Assembly: GCA_018065375.1 (NCBI GenBank)
Contig: JAGHTJ010000085.1
Location: forward strand, 1-21,127
Reading direction: 5' to 3'
DNA from: Candidatus Equinaster intestinalis
GTDB taxonomy: Bacteria > Bacillota_A > Clostridia > Oscillospirales > Acutalibacteraceae
DNA: 21,127 bases
The notes below the pieces were generated by a model. It was not told the DNA's origin and searched no databases. It was given only the letters and a program-made list of their open reading frames with translations. The stretch's first letter is position 1, and each line of letters starts with the position of its first letter. Shown piece by piece: positions 4,402-12,363 of the stretch. The position numbers were made by a program, and so were the translations under genes.

Positions 4402-4423
4402 GCGGATAATAATAATGTATAAT
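4395..4423 (+). promoter_or_regulatory. Promoter of the membrane protein gene at 4442
   Basis: TTGTCA (4395-4400), a 17-base spacer, and consensus TATAAT (4418-4423). The predicted transcription start, about 4430, falls at the GAGGTG ribosome-binding sequence. This gives an unusually short leader of about 12 bases and rules out the in-frame ATG at 4415, which overlaps the -10 box. Confidence 0.78.
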
Positions 4424-4441
4424 ATGTGCGAGGTGAAAACA

Positions 4442-5017
4442 ATGCAAAATGAAAATCTTTTAAAGATGGTGCGGGATTATCAGTACAAAAAATCCATCTG
4501 CTATCCCAAAACTCATGAAAGAATATACTGTAATCTTCGCATATACTATATACTTGCCTTTGCCTATCTTATTATCGTTTCGGCTATTCTCATTATGGGG
4601 CTTGCCTTTACAAAGGCCAGTGATAAAAGTTATCTTATAAATACCTGCATAGCATCTGCGCTTTATACGGCGGCATTCGTTCTTATGTTTTTCAAGAGGG
4701 ATTTAATAGGACTAATACTCAATATTGCCGCTACATTTTTTAAGGCGCTTCCCCTTATACCCACACAGATACTTAATGCAGATGTTGTGGATATTAAGCC
4801 GGCGTTTTATTGGGAGCATCTTCTCCCCGTAGTTCTGCTTTTTATCGGAAGTATATGGATGAGCATTATTTCCACGAGGGAAAGACGGCTTGTTCGCAGG
4901 GATAAAAAAATAGTTTTAACCAATCTTTATAATGAGCATCATACCGAGGATATGAGCGAGGAAGACTGGGAAAACTTTGTGAATAACTACATTTCAAACT
5001 ACAAGGAAAAATACTGA
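4442..5017 (+). CDS. Unrecognised four-helix integral membrane protein
   Basis: I do not recognise this 191-residue protein. The start at 4442 is chosen because GAGGTG lies 6 bases upstream and the longer in-frame start at 4415 overlaps the -10 box. The N-terminal ~30 residues are charged and cytoplasmic-looking. Four hydrophobic stretches follow: around YYILAFAYLIIVSAILIMG, INTCIASALYTAAFVLMFF, LIGLILNIAATFFKALPLI and LLPVVLLFIGSIWMSII. Then comes a basic turn (RERRLVRRDKK) and an acidic, aromatic C-terminal tail (DMSEEDWENFVNNYI). The positive residues after the last helix suggest both ends are cytoplasmic. It is a single-gene unit with its own promoter and terminator, divergent from trmL. 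It could be a small stress or envelope membrane protein; no function is assigned. Confidence 0.85.
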   Translation: MQNENLLKMVRDYQYKKSICYPKTHERIYCNLRIYYILAFAYLIIVSAILIMGLAFTKASDKSYLINTCIASALYTAAFVLMFFKRDLIGLILNIAATFFKALPLIPTQILNADVVDIKPAFYWEHLLPVVLLFIGSIWMSIISTRERRLVRRDKKIVLTNLYNEHHTEDMSEEDWENFVNNYISNYKEKY

Positions 5018-9843: not shown

Positions 9844-9872
9844 AAACCGCTCTTTTTGAGCGGTTTATTATT
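9844..9872. terminator. Bidirectional terminator between dnaJ and the XRE gene
   Basis: A perfect 9-bp stem AAACCGCTC (9844-9852)/GAGCGGTTT (9858-9866) with a TTTTT loop and T-rich flanks on both strands. It serves the convergent dnaJ (plus) and XRE gene (minus, stop codon at 9868-9870 inside the T-rich tail). Confidence 0.9.
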
Positions 9873-10083
9873 TTCTATTGATTTCGGGTGTATCCGTACG
9901 GCAAAGAATATAATCAATGCTCACTCCGTAAAAATCGGCAAGACGAATCAAAGACTCGGTTGGAGGTATTCTCTCCCCGTTTTCAAATTTTGAAAGCAAC
10001 GCTTGCTCAATTCCCGTTTCCATTTGAACTTTAATTTGTGTGTACCCTTTTTTCTTCCTCAAAGCTCTTAAATTGTTCTGCAT
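9868..10083 (-). CDS. Small XRE-family helix-turn-helix transcriptional regulator
   Basis: A 71-residue DNA-binding protein made almost entirely of one Cro/C1-type HTH domain. LRALRKKKGYTQIKVQMETG is helices 1-2, and EQALLSKFENGERIPPTESL is the recognition helix and turn. IRLADFYGVSIDYIL is the typical XRE ending, followed by a short polar tail. There is no separate dimerisation or ligand domain. I chose the ATG at 10083 because GGGTGAT lies just upstream; in-frame ATGs up to 10125 fall inside the palindrome repeats. It is divergent from the zinc-ribbon/TM2 gene, and the shared 120-bp intergenic region holds three regularly spaced palindromes. It probably binds these, repressing itself and the neighbour; this is inferred from layout, not shown. 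Confidence 0.88.
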   Translation of the reverse strand: MQNNLRALRKKKGYTQIKVQMETGIEQALLSKFENGERIPPTESLIRLADFYGVSIDYILCRTDTPEINRK

Positions 10084-10094
10084 ATCATCACCCA

Positions 10095-10180
10095 ATGACA
10101 TTATGTCATAATTTAGTATTGACATTTATGACATAATGTCATAATTTAGTATTGACATTTATGACATAATGTCATATAAT
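10095..10180. repeat. 33-bp tandem repeat array carrying three 15-bp palindromes
   Basis: Two 33-base units (10095-10127 and 10128-10160) differ at one base, and a partial third begins at 10161. Each unit starts with a palindrome ATGACAT-N-ATGTCAT centred at 10102, 10135 and 10168, exactly 33 bp apart, about three helical turns, so all sites face nearly the same side. The middle site extends to 19 bp (10126-10144). The third sits between the -35 and -10 of the TM2-gene promoter. Each complete unit also carries TTGACA. The array is most simply read as a multi-site operator for the adjacent XRE protein. Confidence 0.9.
10152..10180 (+). promoter_or_regulatory. Consensus SigA promoter of the zinc-ribbon/TM2 gene with embedded operator
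   Basis: TTGACA (10152-10157), a 17-base spacer, and TATAAT (10175-10180), both hexamers perfect. The spacer is almost entirely the palindrome at 10161-10175, so a protein bound there would block RNA polymerase. An upstream copy of the -35 (10119-10124) faces only TAATTT at the matching -10 position and is probably a by-product of the duplication. Confidence 0.88.
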
Positions 10181-10203: not shown

Positions 10204-10584
10204 ATGGAAAATCAAACCAATGAAAAAACGAAATTTTGTAAGCACTGTGGCGGAACAATTCCGGAAGATGCGGTAATTTGCACCTTGTGTGGCCGCCAAG
10301 TTGAAAAAATTGCAGATGGCTCGCAGCCTAATATTGTAATTAACAATTCAAACGCAAACGTTAATACCAATGTAAATAAAAATGCAGGCGGTTACGGTCG
10401 TCCGAAAAACAAATGGGTAGCATTGATTTTATGCCTTTTCTTGGGATTTTTCGGTGCTCATAAGTTTTATGAAGGCAAGGCAGGTATGGGCATTCTTTAT
10501 TTACTTACCGGCGGACTTTTCGGTATTGGCGTGATAATTGATTTTATTGTAATTCTCACGAAACCGAATCCTTATTATGTATAA
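10204..10584 (+). CDS. Zinc-ribbon and TM2 domain membrane protein
   Basis: A 126-residue protein with three parts. The N-terminal zinc ribbon has Cys12, Cys15, Cys26 and Cys29 (CKHCG and CTLCG). An Asn-rich flexible linker follows (about residues 43-62). The TM2 domain (about 68-122) comprises two membrane helices around [20 protein letters not shown], then [22 protein letters not shown]2 domains are widespread, with no settled biochemical role in bacteria; the zinc ribbon may bind a partner or nucleic acid at the membrane face. The ribosome-binding site AAAGGGG is 7-8 bases upstream of the ATG. It is expressed from a strong promoter that contains a palindromic operator, so it is likely tightly repressed until a signal relieves the divergent XRE protein. 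Function is not assigned. Confidence 0.93.
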
Positions 10585-10599
10585 TCCATAACAAAATTA

Positions 10600-10633
10600 A
10601 CGAGCCAAGCGAAATGCTTGGCTCGTTTTCATT
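10600..10633. terminator. Bidirectional terminator between the TM2 and TspO genes
   Basis: A perfect 11-bp stem ACGAGCCAAGC (10600-10610)/GCTTGGCTCGT (10616-10626) with a GAAAT loop, followed by TTTTCATT on the plus strand and TAATTTTG on the minus strand. Confidence 0.88.
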
Positions 10634-11102
10634 AGTTTAGTAAATAGACACCGAAATTAAGATATGCGGCAATACAGCACCAAACAATATACGGTATCAT
10701 AAGGTAGCCCGCCCATTTGTTGATTTTGTAAAATTTTACGGTAGTTACAACAATAAGCGCTATCATTATGAGCAACCAGACGAACGCAAAAAGGTATGCC
10801 TCCATATTGAAAAATATTATCGACCAGAAGAAGTTGAAAACAAGCTGTACTCCGTAAAAAAGCAAAGCCGAGGTTTTTTTATCCTCCGGCGACCTTGCCG
10901 TATAAACGAGGTATGAGGCTATGCCCATAAGAATATAGAGGATAGTCCAGACTATCGGAAATGCAATTCTCGGCGGAGAAAAGGGCGGTTTGTTTATGAT
11001 TTCAAAGCTTTTCATGCCCTCCATGGTAAGAAGCGCCGAGAGTCCGCCGACCGCCAGCGGAACAATTATGCCGATTATCAGCGGCAACTTTTTTATTTTC
11101 AT
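10632..11102 (-). CDS. tspO: TspO/MBR family tryptophan-rich sensory membrane protein
   Basis: A 156-residue five-helix membrane protein of the TspO/translocator-protein family, which binds porphyrins and similar ligands and has been linked to tetrapyrrole handling and stress sensing. Family marks are KPPFSPPRIAFPIVWTILYILMGIASYLVY (the PPxxxFPxVWxxLYxxMGxAxYxV pattern), QLVFNFFWSIIFF (usual LxLNxxWSxxFF) and the C-terminal NKWAGYLMIPYIVWCCIAAYLNF, with the conserved YxxWxxxAxxLN. The start is supported by GGGGTG 6 bases upstream. It forms a single-gene unit. No clear promoter was found upstream, and no tetrapyrrole genes are nearby, so the physiological ligand is open. Confidence 0.93.
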   Translation of the reverse strand: MKIKKLPLIIGIIVPLAVGGLSALLTMEGMKSFEIINKPPFSPPRIAFPIVWTILYILMGIASYLVYTARSPEDKKTSALLFYGVQLVFNFFWSIIFFNMEAYLFAFVWLLIMIALIVVTTVKFYKINKWAGYLMIPYIVWCCIAAYLNFGVYLLN

Positions 11103-11224: not shown

Positions 11225-11311
11225 GCCGGTGTGTTGGAATTGGCAGACGAGGTGGACTCAAAATCCATTCCTGGCGACAGGGTGCGGGTTCAAGTCCCGC
11301 CACCGGCACCA
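11225..11311 (+). tRNA. tRNA-Leu (anticodon CAA)
   Basis: The acceptor stem GCCGGTG (11225-11231) pairs with CACCGGC (11301-11307), followed by discriminator A and an encoded CCA (11309-11311). The anticodon loop CTCAAAA gives anticodon CAA at 11259-11261, reading UUG. A long variable arm (around TCCTGGCGACAGGGT) marks it as a class II tRNA, and the T arm has GCGGGTTCAAGTCCCGC. The gene is monocistronic, with its own promoter and terminator. Confidence 0.97.
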
Positions 11312-11730: not shown

Positions 11731-12363
11731 ATGAAACGTATTATTTGTTTATTAGTAACTTTTGTATTATTGGTAAGTCTTTTTGCGGTACCGTCATTTG
11801 CCGAAAACAACAGTAACGCTACGCTTGCGAAAAGTGTGCTGTCACGTCAGGTTGTTTTTGATGACCTTTTAAAATTTACCGAAGCGGTAAACACAAACGA
11901 ACCCGATAAAATCCTCAACGCTCTCTTTGAAGCGGCTCCGAATTTTATTGCCGAAATCAAAAAGGCTTTAGACGAGGATTTTGACAGTTTATCGAGCAGC
12001 TCTTTATCCGAGCTTACCACTCCGCCAAACACTCCCGAGCGCAACGTTTATGCCGCAAAATATATGATGAACTCACAAGTTTTACTTGACGATTTCTGCA
12101 AATTAACCGATGTAATTAAAGAGGGCGATGCCGGAAAAATTTTTATGCTCTTCCTCGAAATTTATCCCGATTTTACGGCAGAGTGCAAAAAAGGTTTCAC
12201 CGAATACGATAACCCTATTATTGATGCTTCCCTGATTCAAGGCGCCGTAATCAATTTTGATAATTCGGATTTTGTATGGATAATTATGGCGGCATTGATA
12301 GGCATTGCTATAGGTGCCGGGGTGACCTTGATTATAATAAAAAAGAAAAATAAATCCGCTTGA
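11731..12363 (+). CDS. Secreted, C-terminally membrane-anchored protein with an internal duplication
   Basis: A 210-residue protein of unknown function. It has a classical signal peptide (MKRIICLLVTFVLLVSLFAV, likely cleaved after SFA at about residue 24) and a single C-terminal membrane helix (about 181-203) ending in a basic KKKNK tail. This predicts an extracytoplasmic domain anchored with its C-terminus inside. Residues 40-80 and 116-156 align without gaps, offset 76, with 15 of 41 positions identical. The shared pattern is QV..DD..K.T, then KI, then E..P.F.AE.KK. The repeats look helical and acidic and are joined by a Ser/Thr/Pro-rich linker. The start is supported by AGGAGG 8 bases upstream. 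It is a stand-alone unit with its own promoter and a strong terminator. No catalytic motif or sortase signal is visible. Confidence 0.88.
   Translation: MKRIICLLVTFVLLVSLFAVPSFAENNSNATLAKSVLSRQVVFDDLLKFTEAVNTNEPDKILNALFEAAPNFIAEIKKALDEDFDSLSSSSLSELTTPPNTPERNVYAAKYMMNSQVLLDDFCKLTDVIKEGDAGKIFMLFLEIYPDFTAECKKGFTEYDNPIIDASLIQGAVINFDNSDFVWIIMAALIGIAIGAGVTLIIIKKKNKSA

Follow-up and report, generated by a model that had tools for sequence, protein, structure and literature searches.

The intergenic region studied here raises the question of why one perfect palindrome should stand three times, at even steps, between the gene for a minimal XRE-family protein and a divergently transcribed gene for a membrane protein. 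The region lies in the window, by which we mean the whole stretch of 21,127 nucleotides that was analysed (Candidatus Equinaster intestinalis, contig JAGHTJ010000085.1). Exact ATGACATNATGTCAT palindromes, to which no strand is assigned, occupy positions 10095-10109 (operator 1, proximal to the XRE gene), 10128-10142 (operator 2) and 10161-10175 (operator 3), with evenly spaced centres at 10102, 10135 and 10168. Shuffled versions of the window (100 shuffles, three mismatches allowed) held 0.51 palindrome matches on average and reached three or more in 2 of 100 cases. The three palindromes at 33-bp steps reported in a preliminary description of this DNA are exact, with coordinates confirmed, and the 33-bp tandem duplication reported there is near-perfect as originally framed (a repeat search gave 97% in its own frame) and perfect, 33/33 identical, if each unit is made to run from the spacer through the operator (10110-10142 against 10143-10175). 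Operator 3 fills the 17-bp spacer of a perfect promoter on the forward strand (TTGACA at 10152-10157, TATAAT at 10175-10180), again as described before; a promoter scan gave this as the only 12/12 match between 9700 and 10700, a segment that holds no surplus of promoter-like matches in general (3 found, 3.9 expected). A duplicated TTGACA on the same strand at 10119-10124 has no -10 partner, TAATTT standing 17 bp downstream. Duplication within the window would best explain both this partnerless -35 and operator 2, which lies within the identical 33-bp unit as an extra copy.

On the other side of the palindromes, 11 bases intervene between operator 1 and the XRE start codon (ATG at 10083), in agreement with the earlier placement of the first palindrome just before a minimal XRE gene. 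The gene (9868..10083, reverse strand) encodes 71 residues belonging to the HTH_3 family (Pfam, 56.8 bits against a cut-off of 23). In-frame ATGs further upstream (10101 and 10125) are unlikely starts, because in most relatives translation begins at this same residue, behind a Shine-Dalgarno sequence of the GGTG type. Since the gene abuts dnaJ with a terminator-like hairpin in the convergent gap (9844..9866, seen on both strands and assigned to neither), it looks monocistronic. The XRE strand of operator 1 reads TGA-CATAAT at its centre, which would fit an extended -10 element of the XRE promoter inside the operator; the promoter scan did not list this -10 and gave weaker alternative candidates instead. 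Among relatives, the proximal operator keeps TAA at its centre (79-83%, 98-100%, 96%), and the three central bases of the distal operator vary. The XRE promoter is apparently weak and the divergent one consensus.

The divergent gene (10204..10584, forward strand), which we call the cargo, encodes a zinc-ribbon and TM2 membrane protein of 126 residues (TM2 72.1 bits, cut-off 27.9; DZR 27.7, cut-off 27.3). A TspO/MBR family gene (10632-11102) is convergent with it, with a terminator-like hairpin in between, and is followed by a tRNA-Leu (caa) gene (11225-11311), across which the listed ORFs are probably not genes. The 22 window proteins searched against Pfam belong chiefly to housekeeping families. 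Two window proteins have no Pfam match: one of 210 residues (11731-12363), with a signal peptide and a C-terminal membrane segment by eye and no NCBIfam match either, and one of 200 residues (4415-5017).

Loci for comparison were retrieved by similarity to the XRE protein alone, and the best 80 of 159 relatives were kept (71-83% identical). All are from metagenome-assembled genomes recorded as Clostridia or groups within, and the 80 are not fully independent, since L026 and L027 come from opposite ends of a single contig, and the pairs L019/L028 and L036/L041 are near-identical. The palindrome, on whose presence beside orthologous XRE genes the earlier proposal of an operator depended, was found as a pair in 75 of these best 80 loci: directly upstream of XRE in 74, with a start-to-start spacing of 32 bp in 49 and 33 bp in 25, and about 0.5 kb upstream of XRE in L012. 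In two further loci (L011, L039) a recognisable site is accompanied by a degenerate one, and three close XRE genes (L030, L062, L064) stand without operators. Palindromes of the form ATGAC-N5-GTCAT number 144 in the 811,261 bases of the loci, 141 of them at most 150 bp upstream of XRE, the remaining three being the L012 pair and one stray copy in L016. The sequence that separates operators and XRE in L012 (L012:5466-6000) may hold a small gene, which suggests that the XRE side, too, may acquire cargo.

The promoter is conserved along with the operators. A divergent promoter matching at least 10 of 12 positions with a spacer of exactly 17 bp was present in 73 of the best 80 relatives, being perfect in 40; among the regions preceding other genes of these loci, taken as controls, 24 of 551 reach the same score. 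In 72 of the 80 the distal operator, which operator 3 of the window equals, is recognisable inside the promoter spacer (it is degenerate in L039). The loci that failed are L006, L012, L015, L016, L030, L062 and L064; the scan of L012 stopped short of its displaced operator pair, and in L006, L015 and L016 a good promoter around the distal operator is absent. A third in-register operator is absent from all of the best 80 relatives, although weak third matches (10/12) lie 119-144 bp upstream of XRE in L016, L020 and L058. Since the relatives have no such site, the third operator of the window appears to be a recent local addition, for which slippage between the near-identical sites is the best reading. 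It should give stronger or sharper repression, but its effect could also be neutral. The earlier reading of the palindromes as operators is supported by the conserved pair and by the agreement of helix and operator classes described below, but three sites are not the norm. In the same way, the argument that three helical turns set the sites on one face of the DNA is plausible for the window but does not generalise, as a spacing of 32 bp is commoner than 33 bp and other subtypes use 25 or 54-57 bp.

We consider it likely that the region is a self-repressed cassette with a strong promoter and an exchangeable cargo, a reading supported directly by the sequence architecture and its conservation, the near-privacy of the operator, the variety of the cargos and the correspondence between recognition helices and operators. 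In this scheme a dimer of the 71-residue XRE would bind 15-bp ATGACA-N3-TGTCAT operators, as the agreement of helix and operator classes indirectly suggests. Because the distal operator lies within the spacer of a consensus promoter, a bound dimer would shut off the divergent cargo, here the zinc-ribbon/TM2 gene; because the proximal operator lies by the XRE start, probably over the XRE -10, XRE would also repress itself and its level would be held low. The fixed spacing of 32 or 33 bp suggests that dimers cooperate. As the protein has no room for a sensor domain, release would probably come from dilution, proteolysis or an unknown anti-repressor. The unit of XRE, operators and promoter stays constant across relatives, with the cargo differing.

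No published description of the XRE/operator/TM2 system was among the matches listed in a literature search, which missed most subscription journals; the papers listed deal with the pLS20 switch, other regulons, toxin-antitoxin systems, mobile elements, and controller proteins and restriction-modification regulation. Several known systems offer partial likenesses. Phage and ICE immunity repressors use tandem operators in divergent promoters, and the closest PDB sequence match of XRE is the regulator of ICEBs1, itself an Xre protein (7t8i, E 1.5e-7), with weak matches to the 434 and P22 C2 repressors (E 0.006-0.009); unlike such repressors, XRE lies among 22 window proteins in which Pfam found no integrase or phage families, and it scores below the cut-off of the NCBIfam model for phage RstR-type repressors (52.3 bits against 80). 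A phage origin was considered and rejected: the operator-pair pattern occurs in four contigs of viral origin, but inspection by eye of the surrounding ORFs of at least 50 residues showed no XRE. Operator pairs at 32 bp in viral contigs (L108:6362-6408, L110:6374-6420, L109:4668-4714) stand just upstream of genes, with no XRE seen, and these genes presumably encode small heat-shock (Hsp20-type) proteins.

RcoLS20, the regulator of plasmid pLS20, belongs to the XRE family, and C.Csp231I and C.EcoO109I are restriction-modification controller proteins, small HTH dimers with two 15-bp palindromic operators upstream of their own gene, as the cassette has in 75 of the best 80 relatives (three in the window), with autoregulation predicted here. 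C.Csp231I, the nearest precedent with measurements, regulates itself through a pair of 15-bp sites ahead of its gene; a gap of 18 bp separates them (33 bp between their starts), and its length is critical for binding of the second dimer (PMC4321490). Its operator as given there (CTAAG-N5-CTTAG) differs from the ATGACA-N3-TGTCAT of the cassette, and, unlike that system, the window has no linked restriction or methyltransferase genes among the 22 proteins searched, while the divergent cargo of the cassette is variable and mostly membrane or secreted. RcoLS20 has divergent promoters, one strong and repressed, the other weak and autoregulated (PMC4207663). The cassette shares with this Gram-positive regulator the divergent promoters, but the pLS20 switch involves a tetramer, DNA looping, multiple sites per operator and conjugation genes, as against a 71-residue protein with two or three single sites.

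These likenesses give substance to a concentration-dependent switch between activation and repression, in which XRE at low levels would activate its own weak promoter from one operator and at high levels repress it, so that the cargo would be transiently on when the cassette enters a new cell. We regard such a switch as possible but doubtful. Operator size and spacing are as in C.Csp231I and the divergent promoters as in pLS20 Rco, the XRE promoter appears weak beside a consensus cargo promoter, and activation at one site is conceivable, as C proteins and RcoLS20 both activate and repress; however, the distal operator within a consensus spacer is where a site would be expected to block the promoter, and no restriction-modification or conjugation families were found among the 22 window proteins with Pfam.

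Returning to the self-repressed cassette, its cargo is the most variable part. Counting the window, 71 loci have an assigned cargo gene; in 61 it starts at most 120 nt from the -10, the other 10 lie further away and some loci have none, so that the promoter may serve nothing there or the ORF choice may be wrong. The 71 cargos fall into 47 BLAST groups and include zinc-ribbon membrane proteins, lipoprotein-like proteins, BspA-type LRR proteins, DUF4190 and DUF2130 proteins, an ABC ATPase and others. Near cargos (59 after near-duplicates were dropped) were set against 787 ORFs from elsewhere in these loci: hydrophobic membrane or signal segments are predicted for 85% of the cargos and 36% of the background (Fisher p 1.6e-13), and the first 60 residues contain two CxxC motifs in 13 of 59 cargos as opposed to 12 of 787 background ORFs (p 6.7e-10), in what is a crude test based on simple ORF calling and hydropathy, with the background ORFs called differently. 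TM2, which had been put forward as the target of control, does follow the promoter in the window, but it is one among many cargos. None of the window neighbours, TM2 included, has a useful-length match in the 80 XRE loci, where the only two TM2 matches cover 28 and 35 residues, and a plasmid search returned a single weak TM2 match.

The distribution of the cassette is likewise patchy. Among 30 genomes, 27 of them with a match, the DnaK proteins nearest to that of the window (88-90%) come from G018, G011, G140, G139, G001 and G135, which occur together in one genus sample. Across the 61 genomes of the genus sample the exact operator pair was found in 10 and XRE in 14, and across the 101 genomes of the family sample the exact pair was found in 2. 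Nine dnaK-dnaJ stretches contained neither a close XRE nor TM2; six of these reach at least 3 kb past dnaJ, two are shorter and one has no dnaJ in range. The stretches L115 and L117 contain distant XREs alone (48% and 33% identical, respectively). TM2 matches were obtained in 7 of the 61 genus genomes, near-full-length (77-81%) in G157 and G165, both without a close XRE and with other neighbours around TM2 than in the window, and at E 1e-40 in 8 of 250 further genomes.

It could be argued that XRE is an ordinary, vertically inherited regulator and that the variety of cargos reflects poor conservation of gene order among distant metagenome-assembled genomes. Pairs of XRE at least 85% identical share a cargo group more often than those below (22 of 261 against 34 of 2223), which is a weak link, and the 40 most similar pairs are mostly about 50-70% identical at third codon positions, which points to old splits and counts for vertical descent. 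We nevertheless hold this to be unlikely, given the 47 groups among 71 cargos and their functional bias, the patchy presence of XRE and of the operator pair in genus and family, the six related genomes with neither a close XRE nor TM2 within at least 3 kb past dnaJ, and the TM2 orthologues with other neighbours in two genus genomes.

The small XRE adjoins small membrane proteins, and this together with weak matches to antitoxin models in NCBIfam would fit a module for defence or of toxin-antitoxin-like type, with XRE keeping a harmful membrane protein neutralised or silent. We find this quite improbable, because the antitoxin matches all fall far below their cut-offs (HipB 25.8 bits against 79, Y4mF 23.3 against 71.65, PezA 20.3 against 290), the linked gene in the window is TM2 and not a toxin of a type II system, and the cargos are as varied as BspA-type LRR, DUF2130 and ABC ATPase proteins. 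PADLOC assigned seven families among 55 cargos, each to one cargo and none to the TM2 of the window; a defence-system reading was set aside, as it had weak single matches only. No restriction-modification families were found in these 55 cargos among the 25 listed of 40 Pfam families.

The operator of the self-repressed cassette also appears to be nearly private within the genome. The exact operator pair is present in 26 of the 30 genomes of the loci, once in each except G016, which has two copies near the ends of one contig; it was not found at this stringency in G008, G020, G024 and G028. Close XRE genes (E 1e-18) number one per genome in the 30 genomes, double in G016. In L026/L027 (JAFUKG010000032.1), identical XRE loci lie near both contig ends, probably a terminal duplication of the assembly. 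Searching the single-operator pattern in a second set of 30 genomes (the 26 with the exact pair and four others, all chosen for having the cassette) gave 55 exact matches, 54 of them at the cassette, and 29 of the 30 genomes have no copy away from it. No wider regulon was seen in these genomes, and the regulator therefore looks private, a property measured in genomes with the exact site, since the four pair-less genomes (those of L011, L038, L049 and L059) were left out. Against a strict single copy, isolate SIG498 has both L046, which carries operators, and L062, which does not. The sole outside match had suggested that G001 keeps the relic of a cassette behind dnaJ; this was rejected, the match lying within a 715-residue coding sequence, which we take to be Tex-like.

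A role of the palindromes as hairpins in RNA or as transposon ends, instead of protein sites, is extremely unlikely: perfect inverted repeats in tandem and an innermost pair changed on both sides in L024 could be cited in its favour, but the arms are near-invariant in 74 loci except for the innermost pair of the distal site (A-T in 55, mismatched in 15, G-T in 3 and G-C in 1, the last being L024) and the three central bases vary, a combination of invariant arms and broken pairing that fits protein-DNA recognition rather than RNA pairing, and copies beyond the cassette are absent from 29 of the 30 genomes, the sole exception falling within coding sequence.

TM2 genes elsewhere led to related cassettes. 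Of ten TM2 loci examined, six (L129, L149, L152, L153, L154 and L156, the match in the last beginning at residue 40) carry beside TM2 a divergently oriented small XRE that belongs to another subtype; the TM2 neighbour is presumably a CopG/RHH-like protein in L150 and a YlxM-like HTH protein in L128, and no regulator was seen beside TM2 in L151 and L155. TM2 relatives adjoin at least four other small XRE types divergently, several with their own palindromes.

Two XRE queries of other subtypes, taken from TM2 loci, gave 45 loci, among them the truncated L200 as well as L186 and L190, which denote a single place. A promoter of at least 10/12 with a 17-bp spacer was present in 23 of 30 loci for the first query and in 14 of 14 for the second; a palindrome with arms of at least 5 fills the spacer in 6 of 23 and 12 of 14 of these promoters, respectively, compared with 1 of 551 controls that has both such a promoter and such a palindrome. 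Hydrophobic segments were predicted in 12 of 18 near cargos for the first query and 7 of 8 for the second. Three operator classes could be distinguished: TAACC..GGTTA, with the helix KQ[PS]QY (n=12) and a spacing of 54-57 bp in 12 of 12 loci with a pair, both operators flanking the promoter and not lying within its spacer; CTGCAAwTTGCAG, with the helix CSQQVY (n=6) and a spacing of 25 bp in 6 of 6; and TATCTG..CAGATA, with the helix [SA]QNTYSQYE (n=12 distinct) and, among 13 distinct loci, a spacing of 25 bp in all but one, which has 26 bp. The recognition helix matches the operator class in 30 of 30 assignable distinct loci, a fit to be read in the light of classes defined after viewing the sequences and of shared ancestry, which accounts for part of it; on the other hand, the TAACC and CTGCA classes both came from one query. 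The other 15 of the 45 rows comprise 13 without a class, the unreadable L179 and the duplicate L186; L172, outside the classes, is an exception in having a KQPQY helix with no TAACC-type site found. In L169 (1734-1801) and L163 (810-915), third operator-like copies lie 24-25 bp from a neighbour, which suggests that other subtypes have gained operators as well.

More tentatively, and with somewhat less than even confidence, we suggest that gut Clostridia harbour a large class of strong, portable, self-repressed promoters. Each subtype would combine a minimal XRE and a consensus divergent promoter with a fixed operator pair, placed either in the promoter spacer and against the start of XRE or on the two sides of the promoter. 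The operator codes of the subtypes would match their helices, the site of the window subtype would be nearly private, cassettes and their envelope or zinc-ribbon cargos would be freely recombined, one cassette occurring with many cargos and one cargo with many cassettes, and operator number would change by tandem duplication. What is unusual about the locus is the exchangeable self-repressed cassette with its matched XRE-operator subtypes, and not the triplet of palindromes. If this is true, a unit of regulator, operator and promoter moves between genes as a module, and newly acquired surface or membrane genes would receive a promoter that is strong yet limits itself, and crosstalk with the rest of the genome would be low. 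The natural collection of helices and operators would then help to decode XRE specificity and supply orthogonal repressors, and one style of control would link poorly understood genes for small membrane, lipoprotein and zinc-ribbon proteins.
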